The position numbers were made by a program, and so were the translations under genes. Below, in pieces: positions 3,108 through 61,606 of a DNA stretch of 64,000 nt. The stretch spans positions 186,001 to 250,000 of the forward strand of contig NZ_VOQF01000005.1 in the NCBI RefSeq assembly GCF_007994985.1. The letters are read 5' to 3'. How positions within the stretch are numbered: position 1 is the stretch's first letter; the number at the start of each line of letters is the position of its first letter. The notes below the pieces were generated by a model. It was not told the DNA's origin and searched no databases. It saw only the letters and a program-made list of their open reading frames with translations. This DNA is from Metabacillus litoralis (GTDB lineage Bacteria > Bacillota > Bacilli > Bacillales > Bacillaceae).

Positions 3108-5981
3108 ATGGCAATGGAACATATAATTGTGAAGGGAGCACGTGCTCACAATTTAAAAAATATTGATGTAACCATACCGCGAGATAAGCTTGTTGTTTTA
3201 ACAGGATTATCAGGTTCAGGGAAGTCATCATTAGCTTTTGATACGATTTATGCAGAAGGTCAACGACGCTATGTTGAATCATTATCAGCATATGCACGTC
3301 AATTTTTAGGTCAAATGGATAAGCCTGACGTTGATGCGATAGAAGGTTTATCACCTGCGATTTCAATTGATCAAAAAACAACAAGTCGAAATCCACGTTC
3401 AACTGTTGGAACAGTAACAGAAGTGTATGATTATTTACGTCTTTTATTTGCACGTGTTGGGCGACCAACATGTCCAATTCATGGCATTGAAATCACATCA
3501 CAAACGATTGAGCAAATGGTTGATCGAATTCTCGAATATCCTGAACGAACAAAGCTTCAGGTGTTAGCTCCAATTGTTTCAGGACGAAAAGGCACACATG
3601 TAAAGGTGTTTGAGGATATTAAAAAGCAAGGCTATGTACGTGTAAGAATTAATGGTGAAATGCAGGAGCTTTCAGAAGAAATCTCATTAGAAAAAAATAA
3701 AAAGCACTCGATTGAAGTTGTTATCGATCGAATTGTTGTCAAAGAAGGTGTAGCATCTCGTTTAGCGGATTCATTAGAAGCTGCCCTTCGTCTTGGTGAA
3801 GGTAAGGTTATGATTGATGTAATGGGAGAAGAAGAGCTGCTATTTAGTGAACATCATGCTTGCCCACAATGTGGCTTCTCAATCGGTGAGCTTGAGCCAA
3901 GAATGTTTTCGTTCAACAGTCCTTTCGGCGCATGTCCTGGCTGTGATGGTTTGGGTACAAAGCTAGAGGTTGATTTAGATCTTGTTCTTCCAAATAAAGA
4001 CCTCACTCTAAAACAACATGCCATCGCACCATGGGAGCCAACAAGCTCACAATATTATCCACAAATGCTTGAAGCTGTTTGTAATCATTATGGAATAGAT
4101 ATGGATATACCCGTGAAGGATCTTCCAAAGCATATGATGGATAAAATATTATTCGGCAGTGATGGCGAAGAAATTTATTTTCGTTATGAAAATGATTTCG
4201 GTCAAATTCGTGAAAATTACATACAATTTGAAGGTGTAGTCAGTAATGTAGAGCGTCGTTATAAAGAAACAAGCTCAGATTTTATTCGTGAGCAAATGGA
4301 GAAATACATGGGTCAGCAAGATTGCCCAACATGTAAAGGACATCGTCTTAAAAAAGAATCACTAGCAGTGTTAATTCAAGGAAATCATATTGGTGAAATA
4401 ACAAAGCTTTCAGTTCAAGATTCTTTATCATTTTTTCATTCCCTTTCGCTTACGAAAAAAGAAATGACAATAGCGAACTTAATTTTAAAAGAAATTAGTG
4501 AGAGATTAGGCTTTTTGAATAATGTTGGACTTGATTATTTAACATTAAATCGAGCAGCTGGCACATTGTCAGGTGGAGAAGCACAGCGTATTCGCCTTGC
4601 CACTCAAATTGGCTCACGCTTAACAGGTGTTTTGTATATCCTTGATGAACCATCGATTGGTTTACATCAACGTGATAATGATCGATTAATTCAAACACTG
4701 CAAAATATGCGGGATATTGGTAATACACTTATCGTTGTCGAGCATGATGAAGATACAATGATGGCTGCTGATTATTTAATCGATATTGGACCTGGTGCAG
4801 GAATTCATGGTGGACAAGTTATCTCTGCAGGTACACCTGAGGAAGTAATGAATGATGAAAACTCCTTAACAGGTCAATATTTAGTAGGACGTAAATTTAT
4901 TCCACTACCATATGAACGAAGAAAGCCAGATGGTCGATTTATCGAAATCAAAGGTGCAAAAGAGAATAACTTAAATAATGTAAGTGTGAAATTCCCACTA
5001 GGCACGTTTATCTCAGTTACAGGTGTATCAGGTTCAGGGAAAAGCACATTAGTTAATGAAATTCTTCATAAATCACTGGCACAAAAGCTGCATAAAGCAA
5101 AAGCTAAGCCAGGTGAGCATAAAGAGGTTAAAGGAATAGATTATCTAGAAAAAGTAATTGATATTGATCAATCACCAATCGGACGTACACCCCGATCTAA
5201 TCCGGCAACATATACGGGAGTTTTTGATGATATTCGTGATGTTTTCGCAACAACAAACGAAGCAAAAGTAAGAGGCTATAAAAAAGGTCGCTTTAGCTTT
5301 AACGTAAAAGGTGGACGTTGTGAAGCATGTCGTGGAGACGGAATTATTAAAATTGAAATGCACTTCTTACCAGATGTGTATGTTCCTTGTGAAGTTTGTC
5401 ATGGCAAAAGGTACAACCGTGAAACACTTGAAGTCACCTATAAAGGAAAGAATATTTCTGATATCTTAGAGATGACTGTTGAGGATTCTGTTGGTTTCTT
5501 TGAAAATATTCCAAAAATCAAACGTAAACTACAAACGATTTTTGATGTTGGTTTAGGATATATTACACTTGGACAACCAGCAACAACTCTTTCAGGTGGA
5601 GAAGCGCAAAGAGTGAAGCTAGCATCAGAATTACACAGACGCTCAACAGGTCGCTCATTATATATTTTAGATGAACCAACAACAGGCTTACATGTTGATG
5701 ATATCGCACGTCTTCTAAAAGTACTACAACGATTAGTTGATAATGGTGATACCGTTCTAGTGATTGAACATAATTTAGATGTGATCAAAGCAGCAGATTA
5801 TCTTGTTGACTTAGGTCCTGAAGGTGGAGACAAAGGTGGTCAAATCATCGGAGTCGGAACACCAGAAGATATTATGAACAATGAAAAGTCCTATACAGGT
5901 AAGTATTTGAAACCTGTCATTGAAAGAGACCGTGAGCGAATGCGGAAGCTTGTGAAAGAAAAAGAAGAAGTAACACAATAA
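3108..5981 (+). CDS. uvrA: Excinuclease ABC subunit A
   Basis: UvrA, the damage-recognition ATPase of nucleotide excision repair, working as a UvrA2-UvrB complex. 957 residues, full length. Two ABC ATPase modules are visible: Walker A GLSGSGKS at residues 33-40 and GVSGSGKS in the second half. Each half has an ABC signature (LSGGEAQR) and a D-E-P Walker B. Zinc-binding cysteine pairs are present (CPQC with CPGC in the first half; CEAC with CEVC in the second). It starts seven bases after uvrB, with GAGG upstream, and ends at a terminator. Expression should follow the LexA-controlled uvrB promoter. Confidence 0.98.
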
Positions 5982-5995
5982 TAGATAATTAAGTA

Positions 5996-6031
5996 AAAAA
6001 CTACTCTTGAATTAACAGGAGTAGTTTTTTT
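5996..6031 (+). terminator. Terminator after uvrA
   Basis: AAAACTACTC pairs with GAGTAGTTTT, followed by a T run. Ends the uvrBA operon. Confidence 0.88.
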
Positions 6032-6123
6032 GCTTTCTTGAAGAAGACAAAGATCTAAATGTAAATTAAACTAAAGCTAATAAGTGTTTTAGTAAGCGCA
6101 TTTTATTTTAAAGGATGATTGAT

Positions 6124-7023
6124 ATGGAAGTTAAAGCTTTAACGAATGTGTATAAAGAAAAATTCATTGCGTACTGCAAGAAATATCGAAATGATGTTGA
6201 TGACTCCTTTTTATATGATGAAGATTTAAGAAATTTTGAACTCAACGATGATAACCCTACTTACCTTATTTTAAATCAGGAAAGAGAAATTATTGCTGCT
6301 GCTTCCTTAATGATTGATGAATACAATAAACGAGGGAAAAAAGCTCGTTTTCGACTTTTTCATTCTGAAGTAGATGATTTTAGCTGCTATAGCTTACTTT
6401 TAGAGAAGATTCTGCTACATACAAAGGGCTTGGAGAAGGTATTCCTTTTTATTAATCTTGAAAATGAAAAATTAATGAATATAATGAAAAAATTGAATTT
6501 CACAATAGAAAGATATTCATTCGTTCTTTTAAGAGAAAATACAGAGGTGGAAGAGCCAGTATACTCCACTGATTACAACGTTAGAGATTTTAGACAGGGA
6601 AAAGATGAAGAAGTTTGGTGTAATGTTAGAAATGAGGGATTTGCGAAGCTTCAAGGAAATGAAACACCAATTGATCCAGAAAATGTAGCGAAGATGCTCT
6701 CAAGTGAAGACTATCTAGAAGGTGGAATGAAAATTCTATATCATCAAGAAAAACCTGTTGGAGTTGTGAGGTGTACGAATGATGTTTACCTTAATGAACC
6801 AACAATGAATATAGGACCTATCAGCATCATTCCTGATTATCAAGGAAAGGGTCTAGGTAGGAATTTACTAAGAACTGCACTGAAATTTGCTCAAGAACAA
6901 ACCTATAAAAAAACAATATTATGCGTGAATGCTGAGAATGATCATGCAAAAAAACTATATCTTCAGGAAGGTTTTAAACAGGTTGAAGCAGTTGCTTGTT
7001 ATAAGTATGATCTAACTGTGTAA
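6124..7023 (+). CDS. Tandem GNAT acetyltransferase
   Basis: Protein of 299 residues that looks like two GNAT folds in a row. The C-terminal half is canonical: GPISIIPDYQGKGLGRNLL holds the acetyl-CoA loop (Q-G-K-G-L-G), followed by CVNAENDHAKKLYLQEGF. The N-terminal half has the general strand-helix pattern but no clear acetyl-CoA loop and may be a degenerate domain. The ATG at 6124 is chosen because AAAGGA precedes it at a normal distance; the ATG at 6115 overlaps that ribosome site. It stands alone between the uvrA terminator and repeat R2. The substrate is unknown. Confidence 0.82.
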   Translation: MEVKALTNVYKEKFIAYCKKYRNDVDDSFLYDEDLRNFELNDDNPTYLILNQEREIIAAASLMIDEYNKRGKKARFRLFHSEVDDFSCYSLLLEKILLHTKGLEKVFLFINLENEKLMNIMKKLNFTIERYSFVLLRENTEVEEPVYSTDYNVRDFRQGKDEEVWCNVRNEGFAKLQGNETPIDPENVAKMLSSEDYLEGGMKILYHQEKPVGVVRCTNDVYLNEPTMNIGPISIIPDYQGKGLGRNLLRTALKFAQEQTYKKTILCVNAENDHAKKLYLQEGFKQVEAVACYKYDLTV

Positions 7024-7160
7024 GGTGACTGAGTGTAAAAAAGCGTAGTAGTCAGTTAATCTATGAGATATTTTAAAGAGCAACATTGAATTATGTTGCT
7101 CCATATATATATTAGTTAGGGCTATGTTAAAGCTCTAAATGTTAATTTTCAACACACTGT

Positions 7161-7289
7161 TGATTGTAGCGGAAGACGTGAGACTCCTGCGGGAATGCGA
7201 GTCAAAGGGAGACCCCGCAGGCGCTCGCGCCGAGGAGGCTCCCGGACCGCCCGCGGAAAGCGAACGTCTGCAGCGGAAAGAAACAGACC
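7161..7289 (+). repeat. GC-rich palindromic element, copy R2
   Basis: Second copy of the R family, same strand as R1. Outer arm AGACGT pairs with ACGTCT, inner arm GGGAG with CTCCC, and the tip GGCGC-T-CGCGCC is self-complementary. The arm sequences differ from R1 but still pair. Nothing else was recognised in the 7024-7404 gap. Confidence 0.85.
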
Positions 7290-51812: not shown

Positions 51813-52280
51813 ATGCCTAAAGGAATGGGAAAAGTAGTTGCTCAAAACAAAAAGGCAAACCACGATTTTTCAATCGAAGAAACGTTTGAAGCCGGCATTG
51901 TTCTTCAAGGAACGGAAATCAAATCAATTCGAAATGGTCGTGCAAATTTAAAGGATTCTTATGCACGTATTGAACGTGGTGAAGTTTTTTTACTCAATAT
52001 GCATGTTAGTCCTTATGAGCAGGGAAATCGCTATAACCATGATCCATTGCGTACAAGAAAACTACTTCTTCACAAAAAGGAAATTGTTAAATTAATTGGT
52101 GCAACAAAAGAAGATGGCTATGCACTTGTTCCATTGAAAATGTATTTAAAAAATGGATATGCGAAAGTGTTAATAGGTCTTGGTAAGGGTAAAAAGAAAT
52201 ACGATAAGCGTGAAGATTTGAAGAAAAAAGAAGCGAAACGTGATATCGAGCGTGCCTTTAGAGAACGCCAAAAGATATAA
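51813..52280 (+). CDS. smpB: SsrA-binding protein
   Basis: SmpB binds tmRNA and brings it to stalled ribosomes. 155 residues. Beta-barrel with [20 protein letters not shown], the RNA-binding [26 protein letters not shown] region (positions about 65-90), and the basic C-terminal tail ([20 protein letters not shown]) that mimics mRNA in the decoding site. GAGAGGAGG precedes the ATG. ssrA follows 274 bases later. Confidence 0.98.
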
Positions 52281-52554: not shown

Positions 52555-53188
52555 GGGGACGTTACGGATTCGACAGGGGTAGTTCGAGCTTAGGTTGCGG
52601 GCCGAAGGGATCGTCTTCGTTAAAACGTCACGCCAATAATAACTGGCAAATCTAACAATAACTTAGCTTTAGCAGCTTAATAACTGCATAGCTAGTTCCT
52701 CCCTCCATCGTCCATGTGGTAGGGTAAGGGACTCACTCTTAGTGGACTACGCCTAATTCCTCCGTCTGGGGATGATGGAAGAGACCAATCAGACTAGCTG
52801 CTCTGACGCCTGTCGATAGGCATAGGAGTTAGCGAAACTGCGAATTTATCGACTACGCTCGTAGACGCTTAAGTGCCGATATGTCTGGACGTGGGTTCGA
52901 TTAGTAATTAGTCGCCTTATGTGGTAACACATAAGTGAAAATTCGGCTTTATCGGTGAAACCTAAGTCACTTAAATGTGATAGGGCAATGCCGAGCGGTA
53001 TGTAGAGCAATCTAACAGCCGTGTATCGACTTATAGGCTGCCAACTTGGTAGTACTAGGATACGAAAATCTGCCTTTTCTAAAGGTAAAACTACTTTTCG
53101 TATAAGACGCCGAAGGACCTAACAAGGTTCAAGATATAGTCAGTGCCATGACGAAAGCATGGAATAGCACGTCCCACCGTCTCCACCA
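52555..53188 (+). ncRNA. ssrA: tmRNA (SsrA), interrupted by a group I intron
   Basis: Starts with GGGGACGTTACGGATTCGAC and ends with CCCACCGTCTCCACCA; GGGGACG pairs with CGTCTCC as the acceptor stem. The tag frame follows the resume codon at 52645: GGC AAA TCT AAC AAT AAC TTA GCT TTA GCA GCT TAA, giving the tag (A)GKSNNNLALAA. Exon 1 is 52555-52901 and exon 2 is 53172-53188, 364 nt together, normal for Bacillus tmRNA. Joining them rebuilds the T-arm GTGGG-TTCGATT-CCCAC exactly. smpB is upstream, and the terminator overlaps the CCA end. Without splicing the alanine-accepting domain could not form. Confidence 0.97.
52902..53171 (+). ncRNA. Group I intron in the tmRNA T-loop
   Basis: 270 nt between TTCGAT and TCCCACC. 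Exon 1 ends in U and the intron ends in G (53171), the group I rule. The exon end UCGAU pairs with GUCG at 52911-52914, with the wobble U-G at the splice site (P1). P2 is CTTATGTG-GTAA-CACATAAG (52916-52935). A P7 pair GAC(T)TAT / ATAGTC is visible, the latter in the conserved AAGATATAGTC near the 3' side. A P9-like stem near the 3' end uses GTGC/GCAC and CATG/CATG. It has no internal gene. The boundaries are firm; the subgroup is not assigned. Confidence 0.92.
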
Positions 53189-53210
53189 AATACATATTTG
53201 GTGGTTTTTG
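53183..53210 (+). terminator. ssrA terminator
   Basis: CCACCAAA (including the tmRNA CCA) pairs with TTTGGTGG, then TTTTT. Confidence 0.88.
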
Positions 53211-53305: not shown

Positions 53306-53713
53306 TTAAATTTCAAAAAAAGCGTCTTCAAATGCTAACTTTCTCTTTATTAAGTCTTGATTATACTTCCCATTCCGCATAGTTACCTTATCGTAGTTTT
53401 CAATAATCCATAATGCGCGTTTTCTTTTTTGAGGAACCCTTAGATATGGTTCTATTTTGGATAAAAGACTAATGACAGTTTCCTTTTTCTTGATATTTTA
53501 TGTGAAGGAATCTTTATGTTTATCAGGATTATAATTCTTCTTACTACTAATTACTCCTCCAGTGAGGGAATGCGTGTAAGATAATAATTCTATATCAGTA
53601 GAAGCAATTGTAATACATGGTCTTCGATTTTCATTTTTATGTATTTTGGTTAAAGTAATAGAGCCTTCTCCATCGATAATACCAGCTAAATAAGCTACTT
53701 CCCAAATTTCCAT
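53306..53713 (-). pseudogene. LAGLIDADG homing endonuclease with an in-frame stop
   Basis: On the minus strand, MEIWEVAYLAGIIDGEGSI carries the LAGLIDADG helix with the catalytic Asp/Glu region, followed by ITIASTDIELL. After about 71 codons a TAA (53498-53500) interrupts, but the same frame continues for 63 codons (KKKETVISLLSKIEPYLRV then PQKRKRALWII and more) to a natural stop at 53306. The total of ~135 residues is the usual size of a single-motif enzyme. GAGGTG lies six bases before the ATG at 53713. It is antisense to, and just downstream of, the intron-bearing ssrA. Confidence 0.85.
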
Positions 53714-53917
53714 ATCTATCACCTCACATGTTGATGGGAACGCATGTTCTTGTTGGTGACTTAATTATACAAAAAATTCCCTTATTGTTCAATAAAAATA
53801 TGTTTGGAAAATTGAGAAATAATTAAAGGTTAAATACTAAAAATGTCAGCAGGGTTTCTCAAAAACTTTACATAATGCAATTATCCAAGAAACGGTTATA
53901 TTTATATTTTTCTTTAA

Positions 53918-57435: not shown

Positions 57436-57465
57436 TTGACAATTGATAGCGGTTTCTTATATAAT
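57436..57465 (+). promoter_or_regulatory. Promoter of the GH16 glucanase gene
   Basis: -35 TTGACA (57436-57441), 18-base spacer, -10 TATAAT (57460-57465): both hexamers match consensus. Such a strong promoter needs repression, consistent with the operators at 57315 and 57469. Confidence 0.8.
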
Positions 57466-57468
57466 TAC

Positions 57469-57484
57469 TTTCGAAAGCGCTTTA
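57469..57484 (+). promoter_or_regulatory. Operator O2 of the glucanase gene
   Basis: TTTCGAAAGCGCTTTA lies immediately after the -10 and covers the transcription start. It is the reverse complement form of O1 (core AAAGCGCTTT with adjacent CGAAA). Confidence 0.7.
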
Positions 57485-57571
57485 GGTATTCTGGATCGAT
57501 CTATACTTATAAAAAAGGTAGATTATCAGATTCTAAAATTAGTCATGTGCAAGGGGAGGGGATCTTTTAAA

Positions 57572-60500
57572 TTGGTAACTCAATTAAGGAAAATGCAGAT
57601 GGTGAAAAAATCGTTTTACGGATTTTTAGTACTCTTACTATTCATTTCGAATGTTGCATTTATACCAAATGTAAAAGCAACAGAGGTTGAATGGACGGAG
57701 ACGGGTGATAATTTGTTGGTTGAAGGCGATTTTACTTCAACAACCGAATTTGGAAACCCTGATCAACTGATTAATGGATGGAATGTATATAGCCAGGGAG
57801 CTAACGAACAATGGGCAGGTTTAGCAAATTTCACAGTCAATGAGGGAGTATTACAAACTAGTATCCAACAAGTTGGCTGGGAGTGGTGGCATATTCAACT
57901 ATTCCAAGATGTTGCTCTTCAAGCTGGTAAATATAAACTCCAGTTTGATATGAGCTCTGAGGTAGAAAGACCCGTTTATGTTCAATTAGATGATCAAGTG
58001 GCAGAGAAACAATTTACTGTTACTGAAGACACACAAACATATGAAATGCTACTAGATGTAACTTCTGAAGGAGACCACCGTTTTATGTTTGGTTTTGGAA
58101 GAACAGCTAGTGATATTGAGCCTTCAGTACCTTATAACATAACATTAGATAACGTTAAATTAGTTAAAGTTGAACAAGCAGTACTGGTACAACCAGAACA
58201 ACAACCAGAACAACAACCTGCTACACCTACTGAAGGTGATACAGAAAGTGAAACAGCTGATTCCCAGTGGAACTTAGTTTGGGAAGATACATTTGATGGA
58301 AACGAGCTAGATACAACGAAATGGAACTATGATTTAGGAAATGGCTTTACAGGTTCAGATGGAACGTATGTATCTGGATGGGGAAATGAAGAGCTAGAGT
58401 TCTATCAAGAAGAAAACGTAAATGTTGAAGATGGAAAACTAGTGATTGAGGCTCGTGAAGAACCAGTTTCTGATACCCATGGAACGTATGACTATACATC
58501 AGGGAAAATACACACAAAGGGTAAGTTTTCTCAAAAATATGGAAAGTTTGAAGCAAAAATTAAGTTGCCAGAAGGACAAGGTTACTGGCCAGCATTTTGG
58601 ATGATGCCTCAAGATGATGTGTATGGAGGATGGGCTGCTTCAGGTGAGATTGATATTATGGAAGCTGGCGGATCAGATATTAGCGCAATAGGTGGAGCGA
58701 TTCACTATGGTAGCCAATGGCCGAATAATACGTACACAGCAAAAGACTACCATTTTCCAGAGGGACAAGATATTACGGGATATAACGTGTACAGTGTTGA
58801 GTGGGAGCCAGGTGAAATTCGTTGGTATGTAAATGGAGAGCTTTTCCAGACATTAAATAACTGGAATAGTACGAACAGTGCTAATAGCACAAAATATTCA
58901 TATCCAGCACCATTTGATCAAGAATTTTATCTCATATTAAACCTTGCTATTGGAGGTTGGTATGATGGAAAACCAGGTTCTGAGACAGTATTCCCAGGCA
59001 AGATGGAAGTGGAATATGTAAAAGCTTACGAAAAGGATGCTTATGCTGAACCTGTTGAACCTTCATTTGATGCAGAAGAATTACCTGAAGGTTCAAAAGA
59101 AGCAATTAATGGAAACTATGTTTACGATCGTAACTTCCAAGAAGGTATAACAAGCATTACAAACGGAGAAGATGTAGCGAATAAATGGAGCCAAGATTAT
59201 TGGAACTTAGTTTATTTGGATAACTTTAACGGCAGTGCAAAAGCTTCTGTTGAACAGATTGGAGATAGCAGTTTTGCTAAAGTTGATATCGCAAATGCTG
59301 GAAGTCAGCCATATTCTGTTCAATTAATACAAAACGTTACAATTGGAAAAGGAAGATGGTACAAACTAAGTTTTGATGCTAAATCTACTGCAAATAGAAA
59401 CTTAAATGTGAAAATTGGTGGAGGAGAAGCTAGAGGTTATTCAGCATATTCACCAAGTAAAGACTTTGAGTTATCGAAAGAAATGGAAACGTATGAGATA
59501 ACATTCCAGATGCAAGACGAAACAGATCCTCTTGCACGTTTAGAGTTAAATATGGGACTTGACCCGAACTCTGTATGGGTTGGAAATGTTGTTTTAGAAG
59601 AAACTGAAGCACAAGATCCTTACAATGAAAATGCACCAAAGACACCATTAGCTAATGGAAATCACATTTACAATGGTACTTTTGATCAAGGTCGTATGGA
59701 TCGTATGACATATTGGAATGTAGAAACGACTGGTGCTGAAGCAACTGCAGCGGTTCCTGAGAATAATAGAATGCTCGCTGTTGATATATCCAATGGTGGT
59801 GAATCAACAGACTCAATTAAGGTTATTCAAAAAGGAATAAATCTCCTTTCAAATGATGAATACAAGCTAACCTTTAACTCCAAATCTGATGTTGAAAGAA
59901 CGATCAACGTTGGAGTAGTAAGTGAAGATGGAACGGTAAAATTTGCAGAAGAACAAATAGCATTGACTAATACAATGGACGAAAAAGAAATGACGTTTAC
60001 AATGGCAAATGTATCTGATGCAGCAGGACAATTAGTTTTCTATCTAGGTAATGATGATTCTAATGTCTATTTAGATGATGTGAAATTAGTTCGCCTAACA
60101 AATAACAATGCTGGTTTATCATTTGATGAGATTTTCCCACTTAAAAATGGTGACTTTTCAAATGGTTTAACGAAGTGGGTTAAGCACGTACAAGGTGAAC
60201 ATGACGGATCAAATTCAAATGCAAAACTTGAAGATGTGGATGGTGCAGCAAAATTAACTGTAAATGCTGTAGGGACTAATCCATGGGATGTTCAACTATT
60301 CCAACCGGAACTATCTTTAAAACAAGGTGAAACGTATATTGTTGAGTTTGATGCAAAATCAACAATTGATCGAAAATTAGAAGTAGCTTTAGATAATGGA
60401 GCGCCAGAATACAAACGCTTCTTTAATGAGATTGTTAACTTAACAGATTCGTATGGAACGTACTCGTTTGAATTTGAAATGACACAAGATGATAGTACGA

Positions 60501-61606
60501 ACTTACAATTTATGTTAGGTAACGTTGAAGGTCAAGCGATTGAGGGATCACATGAAGTATTTATTGATAATGTTCGCCTGGAAGTAAAGGATCAAGGGAA
60601 AAAATACTTTCCATTACAAAATGGAGATTTTTCAACAGGATTATCTAACTGGGGCAAACACGTTCAAGGAGAGCATGATGGATCAAGCTCAAGTGCATCG
60701 TTGGAAGAAGAGAATGGTGCAGCGAAATTATCCATTGCAAATGTAGGACAAAACCCTTGGGATGTACAACTATTCCAATCAGAGCTTTCATTAGATCAGG
60801 GTCAAACTTATGTTGTAGAGTTTGATGCTAAATCATCTATCGATCGAAAGCTGGAAGTGGTGGTCGATAACGGAGCTCCTAGCTATCAGAGATTCTTCCA
60901 GAAGATTGTCTCGTTAACGGACACTTTTAAAACTTATTCTTTTGAATTTACTATGACGGCAGAAGATGTTACGAACCTGCAGTTCTTAGTAGGAAATGTT
61001 GATGCTCAAGGTATTTCTAGTGCGCATGATGTTGTGATTGATAATGTAAAACTAGAGGTGAAAGGTTCAAGAGAAGAGTTATCTGGACCGATAAATCCTG
61101 AAGAACCACCGGTAGATCCAAAAGACCCGGTAGATGAGAGTGTCGTACCAGAAAATAAAGATTCATTTGAATACAAAGCAGATAAAAAGCTATACGTGTT
61201 AAAACAATCTGCTAAAGCGATAACATTTACTAAAGATCTATTAAAACAATTGGAAGAAGGCTCTTCTATTGAAATTTCTAATGAAAAAATTAGAGCAGTA
61301 ATTCCAACAAACCTTTTAGTAGGAAATACAGACTTAACATTTAACTTTGGTGATGTATCTGAAGACATCAAGAGTAAAAATGGAGACGCAGTTTCTGAAA
61401 TGTATAACTTTACAATCACAGGTGAGGATGGAACTAAAATAACAAACTTTGGTAACAATAAAGTTGAACTTATCTTCTCTGTGAATTTGGATGATGTAAA
61501 AAATGTGAAAGATTTACAAGTAATATTTATCGATTCAGATGGAAACAAATCTGATGAACAGATTGAAACAACTTTTGATGAAGTAAAAAAAAGAAGCATC
61601 AGCTAA
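57572..61606 (+). CDS. Giant secreted GH16 beta-glucanase (laminarinase type), ends at a frameshift
   Basis: 1344 residues in the open frame. Signal peptide about residues 12-38 (KKSFYGFLVLLLFISNVAFI). Next is a carbohydrate-binding-like module (about 45-195), a Q/P/T linker, and a GH16 catalytic domain (about 220-490) with catalytic E359 and E364 in GEIDIMEAGG. Four more beta-sandwich modules of the CBM4/9 type follow (about 510-1165); the last two are a clear tandem duplication (VKHVQGEHDGS, GKHVQGEHDGS). The segment after them is cut by a frameshift at an A8 tract (61585-61592), beyond which the LPXTG tail continues. The GEIDIMEA motif suggests laminarin or lichenan as substrate. The TTG at 57572 follows GGGGAGGGG; ATGs at 57593 and 57599 are alternatives. 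Confidence 0.88.
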   Translation: MVTQLRKMQMVKKSFYGFLVLLLFISNVAFIPNVKATEVEWTETGDNLLVEGDFTSTTEFGNPDQLINGWNVYSQGANEQWAGLANFTVNEGVLQTSIQQVGWEWWHIQLFQDVALQAGKYKLQFDMSSEVERPVYVQLDDQVAEKQFTVTEDTQTYEMLLDVTSEGDHRFMFGFGRTASDIEPSVPYNITLDNVKLVKVEQAVLVQPEQQPEQQPATPTEGDTESETADSQWNLVWEDTFDGNELDTTKWNYDLGNGFTGSDGTYVSGWGNEELEFYQEENVNVEDGKLVIEAREEPVSDTHGTYDYTSGKIHTKGKFSQKYGKFEAKIKLPEGQGYWPAFWMMPQDDVYGGWAASGEIDIMEAGGSDISAIGGAIHYGSQWPNNTYTAKDYHFPEGQDITGYNVYSVEWEPGEIRWYVNGELFQTLNNWNSTNSANSTKYSYPAPFDQEFYLILNLAIGGWYDGKPGSETVFPGKMEVEYVKAYEKDAYAEPVEPSFDAEELPEGSKEAINGNYVYDRNFQEGITSITNGEDVANKWSQDYWNLVYLDNFNGSAKASVEQIGDSSFAKVDIANAGSQPYSVQLIQNVTIGKGRWYKLSFDAKSTANRNLNVKIGGGEARGYSAYSPSKDFELSKEMETYEITFQMQDETDPLARLELNMGLDPNSVWVGNVVLEETEAQDPYNENAPKTPLANGNHIYNGTFDQGRMDRMTYWNVETTGAEATAAVPENNRMLAVDISNGGESTDSIKVIQKGINLLSNDEYKLTFNSKSDVERTINVGVVSEDGTVKFAEEQIALTNTMDEKEMTFTMANVSDAAGQLVFYLGNDDSNVYLDDVKLVRLTNNNAGLSFDEIFPLKNGDFSNGLTKWVKHVQGEHDGSNSNAKLEDVDGAAKLTVNAVGTNPWDVQLFQPELSLKQGETYIVEFDAKSTIDRKLEVALDNGAPEYKRFFNEIVNLTDSYGTYSFEFEMTQDDSTNLQFMLGNVEGQAIEGSHEVFIDNVRLEVKDQGKKYFPLQNGDFSTGLSNWGKHVQGEHDGSSSSASLEEENGAAKLSIANVGQNPWDVQLFQSELSLDQGQTYVVEFDAKSSIDRKLEVVVDNGAPSYQRFFQKIVSLTDTFKTYSFEFTMTAEDVTNLQFLVGNVDAQGISSAHDVVIDNVKLEVKGSREELSGPINPEEPPVDPKDPVDESVVPENKDSFEYKADKKLYVLKQSAKAITFTKDLLKQLEEGSSIEISNEKIRAVIPTNLLVGNTDLTFNFGDVSEDIKSKNGDAVSEMYNFTITGEDGTKITNFGNNKVELIFSVNLDDVKNVKDLQVIFIDSDGNKSDEQIETTFDEVKKRSIS

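Follow-up and report, generated by a model that had tools for sequence, protein, structure and literature searches.

The group I intron that splits the tmRNA gene (ssrA) of a Metabacillus genome and the LAGLIDADG gene next to it appear to form a split mobile cassette of two genes, similar to collaborative homing, a reading to which we assign a probability of roughly three in four. It draws on the anatomy of the locus, covariation within the intron, the co-occurrence, orientation and correlated divergence of the two parts, a low dN/dS in the few pairs that could be measured and a predicted fold.

The window (the whole stretch of 64,000 nucleotides that was analysed) carries a tmRNA gene with exons at 52555-52901 and 53172-53188, which amount to 364 nt when joined. 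The original prediction had drawn this split from the letters of the DNA, and RF00023 and ARAGORN on the joined exons showed it to be right to the base. When the exons were joined by script, ARAGORN called a 364-nt tmRNA with the tag GKSNNNLALAA, together with a permuted reading of the same artificial piece; on the unspliced gene in place in the window it made no call. RF00023 matched 52563-52903 with 146.3 bits and the tmRNA 3′ end was lost at the intron. Rejoining the exons restored a complete tRNA-like domain and the tag frame, as well as a T-arm, GTGGG-TTCGATT-CCCAC, that is a near palindrome and inside which the intron sits. The features of the tmRNA gene and its upstream neighbour are:

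51813..52280, + strand: smpB, encoding the tmRNA partner protein, immediately upstream of the tmRNA gene (ORF of 155 aa; Pfam SmpB 4.5e-64)
52555..52901, + strand: tmRNA 5′ exon, 347 nt, with the T-loop end TTCGAT (RF00023 146.3 bits; ARAGORN on joined exons)
52645..52683, + strand: tag reading frame GKSNNNLALAA and two stop codons (ARAGORN on joined exons)
53172..53188, + strand: tmRNA 3′ exon UCCCACCGUCUCCACCA, comprising the T-stem 3′ strand, the acceptor 3′ strand and the encoded CCA (sequence; ARAGORN on joined exons)
53183..53204, + strand: terminator-like hairpin that overlaps the CCA end, a 9-pair stem followed by a T run (1 found versus 1.0 expected in shuffles)

Further along, the window also holds a large ORF of 1387 aa with a TTG start (57443-61606), which has a glycosyl hydrolase family 16 domain and four CBM_4_9 carbohydrate-binding stretches.

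The intervening 270 nt are a group I intron in the tmRNA T-loop. In Infernal searches, RF00028 matched 52892-53162 over its full length with 41.0 bits (E 3e-9); the curated cut-off is 50 bits, so the intron is absent from a default search. No other RF00028 match at E <= 0.001 was found anywhere in the genome. The fold energy of 52885-53188 gave a z of -3.87, and none of 100 shuffles was as low. The structure was drawn by hand (P1-P9 and the T-stem, 86 pairs, 5 of them in the T-stem) and counted on an alignment of 35 distinct homologous introns, with the following elements:

52902..53171, + strand: group I intron, 270 nt, in the T-loop, with the terminal G at 53171 and no endonuclease domain inside (RF00028; covariation on 35 introns)
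52898..52914, + strand: P1, in which exon CGAU and intron UA pair with UAGUCG, with U.G at the 5′ splice site (invariant in 35/35 introns)
52916..52935, + strand: P2 hairpin with a GUAA cap (double changes at 4/8 pairs)
52942..52947, + strand: P3 5′ strand, with its partner at 53109-53114 (double changes at 3/6 pairs)
53028..53031, + strand: P7 5′ strand GACU, with its partner AGUC at 53138-53141 (paired in 35/35, no variation)
53038..53103, + strand: P7.1 and P7.2 hairpins (double changes at 2/6 and 7/9 pairs; inner P7.2 stem only 79.8% paired)
53109..53114, + strand: P3 3′ strand (35-intron count)

The drawn structure had 97.5% of its cells paired versus 35-42% when it was slid by 1-3 columns, and double-sided changes were found at 28 of the 86 pairs versus a shuffle mean of 13.7, with none of 500 shuffles reaching any of the five observed values. 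Because the long-range P3 covaries at three of its six pairs, the two halves of the intron core are tied together. Within the group I core (P3, P4, P6, P7 and P8), P3 and P6 covary, P8 shows a double change in one sequence only and P4 has one-sided variation only; P1, P7 and four of the five pairs of P4 are invariant in the 35 introns, that is, conserved and outside the reach of covariation. One P5 pair, which fails in 22/35 introns, and the incompletely paired inner P7.2 stem go against the drawing. We take the presence of P7.1 and P7.2 to be a feature of the subgroup IA type. The structural details that had been proposed from the letters, namely a T-loop group I intron with a U at the 5′ splice site, a terminal G, a U-G wobble in P1, a capped P2 and a P7 strand, all recur in this drawing, which places P3-P9 within 52902-53171. 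Given this structure, the Metabacillus ssrA would need splicing to yield a working tmRNA.

Parsing of 23 genus loci and 80 named loci yielded 97 tmRNA genes, 38 with the intron and 59 without it (L033 and L076, L028 and L078, and L023 and L077 are the same genomes entered twice, and L098 counts twice). A T at position -1 and the intron-terminal G were present in all 38 intron-bearing genes. The 59 intronless genes had C at -1 in 48 cases and A in 2, and the T was kept in the remaining 9 (8 genomes). Some variants among these genes were observed in passing. The T-stem GAGGG..CCCTC occurred in 14/59 intronless and in 0/38 intron-bearing genes; such a stem might be resistant to the enzyme proposed below, or incapable of taking up the intron. 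L024 (G016, L227) and L037 (G003, L228) have a second, intronless tmRNA gene with the tag GKQQNNFAFAA and the T-stem ACCGG..CCGGT; over 260-310 nt this gene shares 73-75% identity with the 5′ exon of the window, and tRNA-Leu and tRNA-Ala genes come after it. In Peribacillus huizhouensis (L098), two tandem tmRNA genes with the same tag (5784-6145 and 6894-7255) start 1.1 kb apart.

About 120 nt downstream of the tmRNA gene of the window, and passed over in the original prediction, lies the second part of the putative cassette:

53306..53713, - strand: broken LAGLIDADG homing-endonuclease gene, 135 codons, convergent to the tmRNA gene (E 3.3e-71 to the family profile)
53764..53792, - strand: promoter-like TTGAAC-17-TATAAT upstream of the endonuclease gene (consensus scan only; 12 sites found versus 6.0 expected)

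The gene is a single frame that runs from the ATG at 53713, directly preceded by a ribosome-binding-like AGGTG in the sequence, to a stop at 53306-53308, and it is interrupted by one internal stop, an in-frame TAA at 53498-53500 (codon 72 of 135). No second endonuclease match was found in the genome of the window at E <= 1e-5. Judged by its reading frame, the endonuclease is dead in the window; because of this in-frame stop the intron is probably immobile, a resident remnant of a cassette that is past its mobile phase.

The family was brought out by a clustering of ORFs near tmRNA genes that had been begun for another idea, namely that the intron shields ssrA from integrating islands. For that idea, a motif scan gave one tyrosine recombinase among 372 downstream ORFs, too few to test it. 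When ORFs of 120 aa or more that follow the parsed tmRNA genes were clustered, the largest family had 10 members (9 genomes, L028 and L078 being one) and the next clusters 7; all 10 lay beside intron-bearing tmRNA genes and all were convergent. The proteins have about 135 aa and carry the motif [LIV]AGI[IV]DGEG in 9/9 aligned relatives. Pfam searches with three of these nine placed LAGLIDADG_3 above its cut-off in all three (2e-8 for one) and LAGLIDADG_1 in two. In the PDB, the closest solved relative was I-MsoI, matched with E 3.7e-5 in its natural form and with E 4.7e-12 in an engineered chain carrying two copies. An AlphaFold model of one relative reached a pLDDT of 91.4 and a pTM of 0.83, and Foldseek matched it best to a redesigned I-MsoI (4.8e-7), then to I-CvuI and I-CreI. 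The stop-free relatives, with an acidic LAGLIDADG motif and a modelled homing-endonuclease fold, are predicted endonucleases, which by analogy with I-MsoI and I-CreI are probably homodimers.

The association between the two parts was analysed in a sample of 397 genomes from 136 genera of the order, drawn from a larger group, at E <= 1e-15 for the endonuclease and E <= 1e-8 for the intron; here the lack of an intron means none at the sensitivity of blastn, which finds only query-like introns. The endonuclease was found in 48 genomes, the intron in 90 and both in 44 (Fisher p 1.6e-28, kinship ignored). In 35 of these 44 the endonuclease match started 31-606 nt past the tmRNA gene, and it was convergent in 35/35. 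In five others, all of them convergent, it lay 6-43 kb downstream within the contig of the tmRNA gene, in three on another contig and in one (G219) about 450 kb off, on the upstream (wrong) side. All 34 endonuclease matches at E <= 1e-40 belonged to intron genomes, and 25 spanned at least 127 of the 135 positions without a stop. The intron also persists without its partner, since 46/90 intron genomes had no endonuclease match at this threshold. When broken copies were counted, tblastn in the fetched downstream stretch detected the endonuclease beside 19/38 intron genes and 2/59 intronless ones, the latter two being genomes with intron scars. Similarly, among 21 genomes of the genus, in which the intron was complete in 12 and truncated in 2, the endonuclease, whole or broken, was present in 9/12 intron genomes, in 2/2 intron-scar genomes and in 0/7 others.

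To these counts we added a kinship-aware test on an smpB tree that takes 74 of the 80 named loci with a readable tmRNA (4 had no tmRNA match and 2 were cut), 26 with the intron and 48 without it. The tree required at least 18 changes of intron state. Nine independent pairs were available on well-supported branches; the endonuclease went with the intron in about 6 and against it in 0, giving a median p of 0.03 (range 0.016-0.063). The endonuclease search behind this test covered the fetched stretch, which for intronless loci reaches 0.7-4.5 kb downstream (median 4.5 kb), and within that distance the endonuclease was found at 0/48 named intronless loci. L076 entered with an endonuclease taken from a genome-wide search, which favours the intron side; the only intronless locus searched genome-wide, L077 (G008), was negative.

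The two parts have also diverged together. Distances were compared at 36 loci chosen for having both parts, with L156 left out because L102 has an identical endonuclease stretch, and with broken endonuclease copies kept and their stops masked. Endonuclease and intron distances correlated with r 0.60, with 0.515 after SmpB and with 0.457 after SmpB and the 5′ exon, each value being reached in 0/2000 permutations (partial Mantel). Given the intron, a weak tie between endonuclease and SmpB distances was left (r 0.18, 32/2000 permutations). The median dN/dS was 0.16 and the maximum 0.28 in the 8 of 231 open endonuclease pairs with dS < 1.5.

Beyond the order, a sample of 398 genomes drawn from the larger group of the phylum gave six matches to the endonuclease at E <= 1e-12: the window, one of the order and four others. 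Three of the latter (L220, L221 and L222), from other branches of the phylum, combined an intron-bearing tmRNA gene with a convergent endonuclease of 48-52% identity; their introns were seen by a profile made from the introns of the first comparison set, and RF00028 matched, below its cut-off, in L220 and L221 only. The fourth, L223, had a standard tmRNA beside a broken endonuclease copy. The class of G797 was represented by 26 genomes, a sample centred on a genome that had been found via the endonuclease. By the extent of the match, three had the intron (the other 17 matches covered exon bases 1-49 only), and the endonuclease was present in two of these three (G797 and G854) and in 0/23 others. 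New in this class were only G836, which has the intron and no endonuclease, and G854, which has both, about 400 nt apart and convergent.

In a phage collection the intron gave short matches in 13 records, the best with E 6e-3 and none longer than 16% of the query, and plasmids contained no endonuclease at E <= 1e-8. Relatives of the endonuclease were found in 10 phage records at 29-39% identity; in viral contigs the top identity was 40% among the best 80 of at least 189 relatives. One phage relative (KY629563.1, Sphingobium phage Lacusarx, 74396-74788) covers 97% of the length at 39% identity; it is annotated as hypothetical in that record and as an HNH endonuclease in the duplicate NC_041927.1, though the query family is LAGLIDADG.

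Four genomes of the order sample (G421, G336, G395 and G192) matched the endonuclease profile without an intron match. In G421 the tmRNA is standard, with C at -1, and a broken endonuclease occupies the usual place 68 nt downstream; intron loss after decay of the enzyme would explain this. The other three carry stop-free frames of a diverged endonuclease branch (E 1e-21 to 1e-28); that of G336 lies about 660 nt from an intronless tmRNA, and in G395 and G192 no tmRNA was found near it in the fetched stretch. Of the loci where the endonuclease matched and the intron did not, L216, L218 and L223 have a standard tmRNA and L217 and L219 have none in the stretch. The modest kinship-aware p, the residual tie of the endonuclease to SmpB, the distant copy of G219 and the T kept at -1 in nine intronless genes also weigh against the cassette. 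Because of these counter-cases and of the intron genomes without an endonuclease, our claim is limited to the close subfamily, with the enzyme as an easily lost partner.

Two relatives carry scars of the intron. G010 (L020/L015) and G012 (L021/L014) each have a complete tmRNA that lacks the intron and differs in its T-stem (GAGGG..CCCTC, with C at -1). Behind it come a spacer (102 and 88 nt, respectively), bases 75-270 of the intron, the former 3′ exon and terminator, and endonuclease remnants. From this order of pieces, it looks as if foreign DNA replaced the tmRNA 3′ end, so that the intron left the gene and its 3′ part stayed behind; such a replacement is a possible route of intron loss. 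In G002, G006 and G007 (the last a remnant) the endonuclease is convergent and about 29, 19 and 51 kb downstream, respectively, which fits the insertion of other DNA between it and the tmRNA. By eye, inserted-looking DNA was noted directly past the tmRNA terminator in L033 and L035, with something similar in L029, and beside the endonuclease in L159, L167 and L185; towards the tmRNA it shows GTGACTT..., towards the endonuclease ...GTCACA, and it includes AAGCATAA-like repeats. The spot right after the terminator is a possible insertion hotspot. Near the tmRNA in L198 (G152, 1887-1981), G225:C6 and G119:C10, the intron was also seen in split pieces or as a decayed second copy.

In the cassette model, cleavage, target site, homing, protection and splicing would fit together as follows. 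A homodimer of the endonuclease would cut intronless ssrA at the near-palindromic T-arm, a near-palindromic site being the kind that a single-motif homodimer reads. If the break is repaired from an intron-bearing copy, the intron, the neighbouring end of the exon and the endonuclease gene would all be acquired at once. The carrier would be immune because its intron splits the target of the enzyme, and loss of the intron while the endonuclease is active would be punished. Once the cassette is established, the endonuclease could decay or be displaced by further insertions, and what remains would look like an ordinary intron with no ORF. We lean, with less assurance than for the cassette itself, towards a wider proposal: that ssrA of the Bacillota has been colonised by a two-component selfish element, in which a self-splicing T-loop intron would be both passenger and antidote and a convergent free-standing LAGLIDADG gene would cut any intronless ssrA. 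Intron loss under an active enzyme would mean cuts in the ribosome-rescue gene. Such pairs would have left behind many of the ORF-less tmRNA introns now on record, and the intron would be lost when the tmRNA 3′ end is replaced, as in both scar genomes. If so, this would be informative about how invasion of an important RNA gene is tolerated and how the intron is later lost.

Other explanations were weighed against the cassette. Other DNA, too, has entered the spot taken by the endonuclease gene, so a hotspot could by itself account for the adjacency: an ordinary tmRNA intron and an unrelated endonuclease gene would share an insertion site downstream of ssrA and have no functional tie. The region past the terminator does seem to accept other insertions, the endonuclease of G002, G006 and G007 lies 19-51 kb away, the scar genomes have a foreign-looking 3′ end and spacer, and about half of the intron genomes (46/90) have no endonuclease match. 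We nevertheless consider a shared hotspot unlikely, since the endonuclease comes with the intron in 44/48 genomes and with none of the 48 named intronless loci (0.7-4.5 kb downstream), its direction is convergent in 35/35, its divergence tracks that of the intron beyond host distance and other branches of the phylum show the same arrangement at 48-52% identity. Slightly less probable is that the endonuclease homes alone into the spacer downstream of ssrA (intronless homing) and the intron rides in the conversion tract. The diverged frame of G336 near an intronless tmRNA and the free-standing phage relatives, such as that of Lacusarx at 39%, would suit such a course, but 34/34 strong matches in the order sample belong to intron genomes.

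A role of the LAGLIDADG protein as a maturase that aids splicing of the intron, and not (or no longer) as a nuclease, seems very improbable to us. Certain LAGLIDADG proteins do act as maturases, the sequence matches include I-AniI, and among the fold matches are I-AniI (titled bifunctional endonuclease and splicing factor) and the bI3 maturase; however, the best relatives are single-motif nucleases, the gene is missing from about half of the order-sample intron genomes, and in the window it is broken while the intron helices are intact. We give hardly any credence to the suggestion, made in the original prediction, that the intron is a regulatory switch coupling tmRNA supply to GTP or growth state. 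All that speaks for it is that group I splicing generally depends on GTP; against it stand the 18 or more gains or losses of the intron required by the 74-genome smpB tree, the intron scars in two relatives and the intronless ssrA with the same tag in several members of the genus. The patchy presence, the loss scars and the linked endonuclease fit a selfish mobile element better than such coupling.

Several known systems resemble the cassette in part. I-MsoI and I-CreI are single-motif enzymes similar to the family of the window in sequence (natural I-MsoI, 3.7e-5) and in predicted fold; they are encoded inside rRNA introns, whereas the genes of the window family lie outside the intron and on the opposite strand. 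Taken alone, the window intron is a plain further member of a catalogued class. In a 2025 survey (PMC11915505), 883 tmRNA sequences of the intron form are listed from 21 phyla; they fall at four T-loop subsites, mostly position 7, to which we assign the window intron by our reading of the legend. It resembles these position-7 introns (PMC11915505, PMC2729099) in host gene, loop, U at -1 and terminal G, its size is near their average of 293 bp (PMC11915505), and it is likewise free of an internal endonuclease. The tmRNA intron of Clostridium botulinum is cited as self-splicing in the portion of PMC2729099 that was accessible. The expectation that T-loop introns of ssrA are reported from other bacteria stood, but their description as uncommon needs qualifying, given the 883 sequences of the survey (PMC11915505) and the 90/397 matching genomes of our order sample. 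The survey counts endonuclease genes within introns (36/883), and its available part makes no mention of a separate downstream endonuclease gene. Likewise, no free-standing endonuclease beside a tmRNA gene came up among the listed titles and abstract openings of the open-licence literature. With internal endonuclease genes in only those 36 of the surveyed sequences (PMC11915505), a linked endonuclease would explain the spread of ORF-less tmRNA introns.

Another close parallel is collaborative homing, which the accessible part of a 2014 review (PMC3984707) describes, from two phages, as an ORF-less group I intron that works with a free-standing endonuclease. The cassette shares with it a separate endonuclease gene, outside the intron and linked to an ORF-less intron, and an expected target at the intron site. 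It differs in that the described cases come from two phages, whereas here a LAGLIDADG enzyme accompanies a structural RNA gene on the bacterial chromosome in several branches of a phylum, with a target presumed from the intron position. If correct, the cassette model would extend collaborative homing from phages to bacterial chromosomes.
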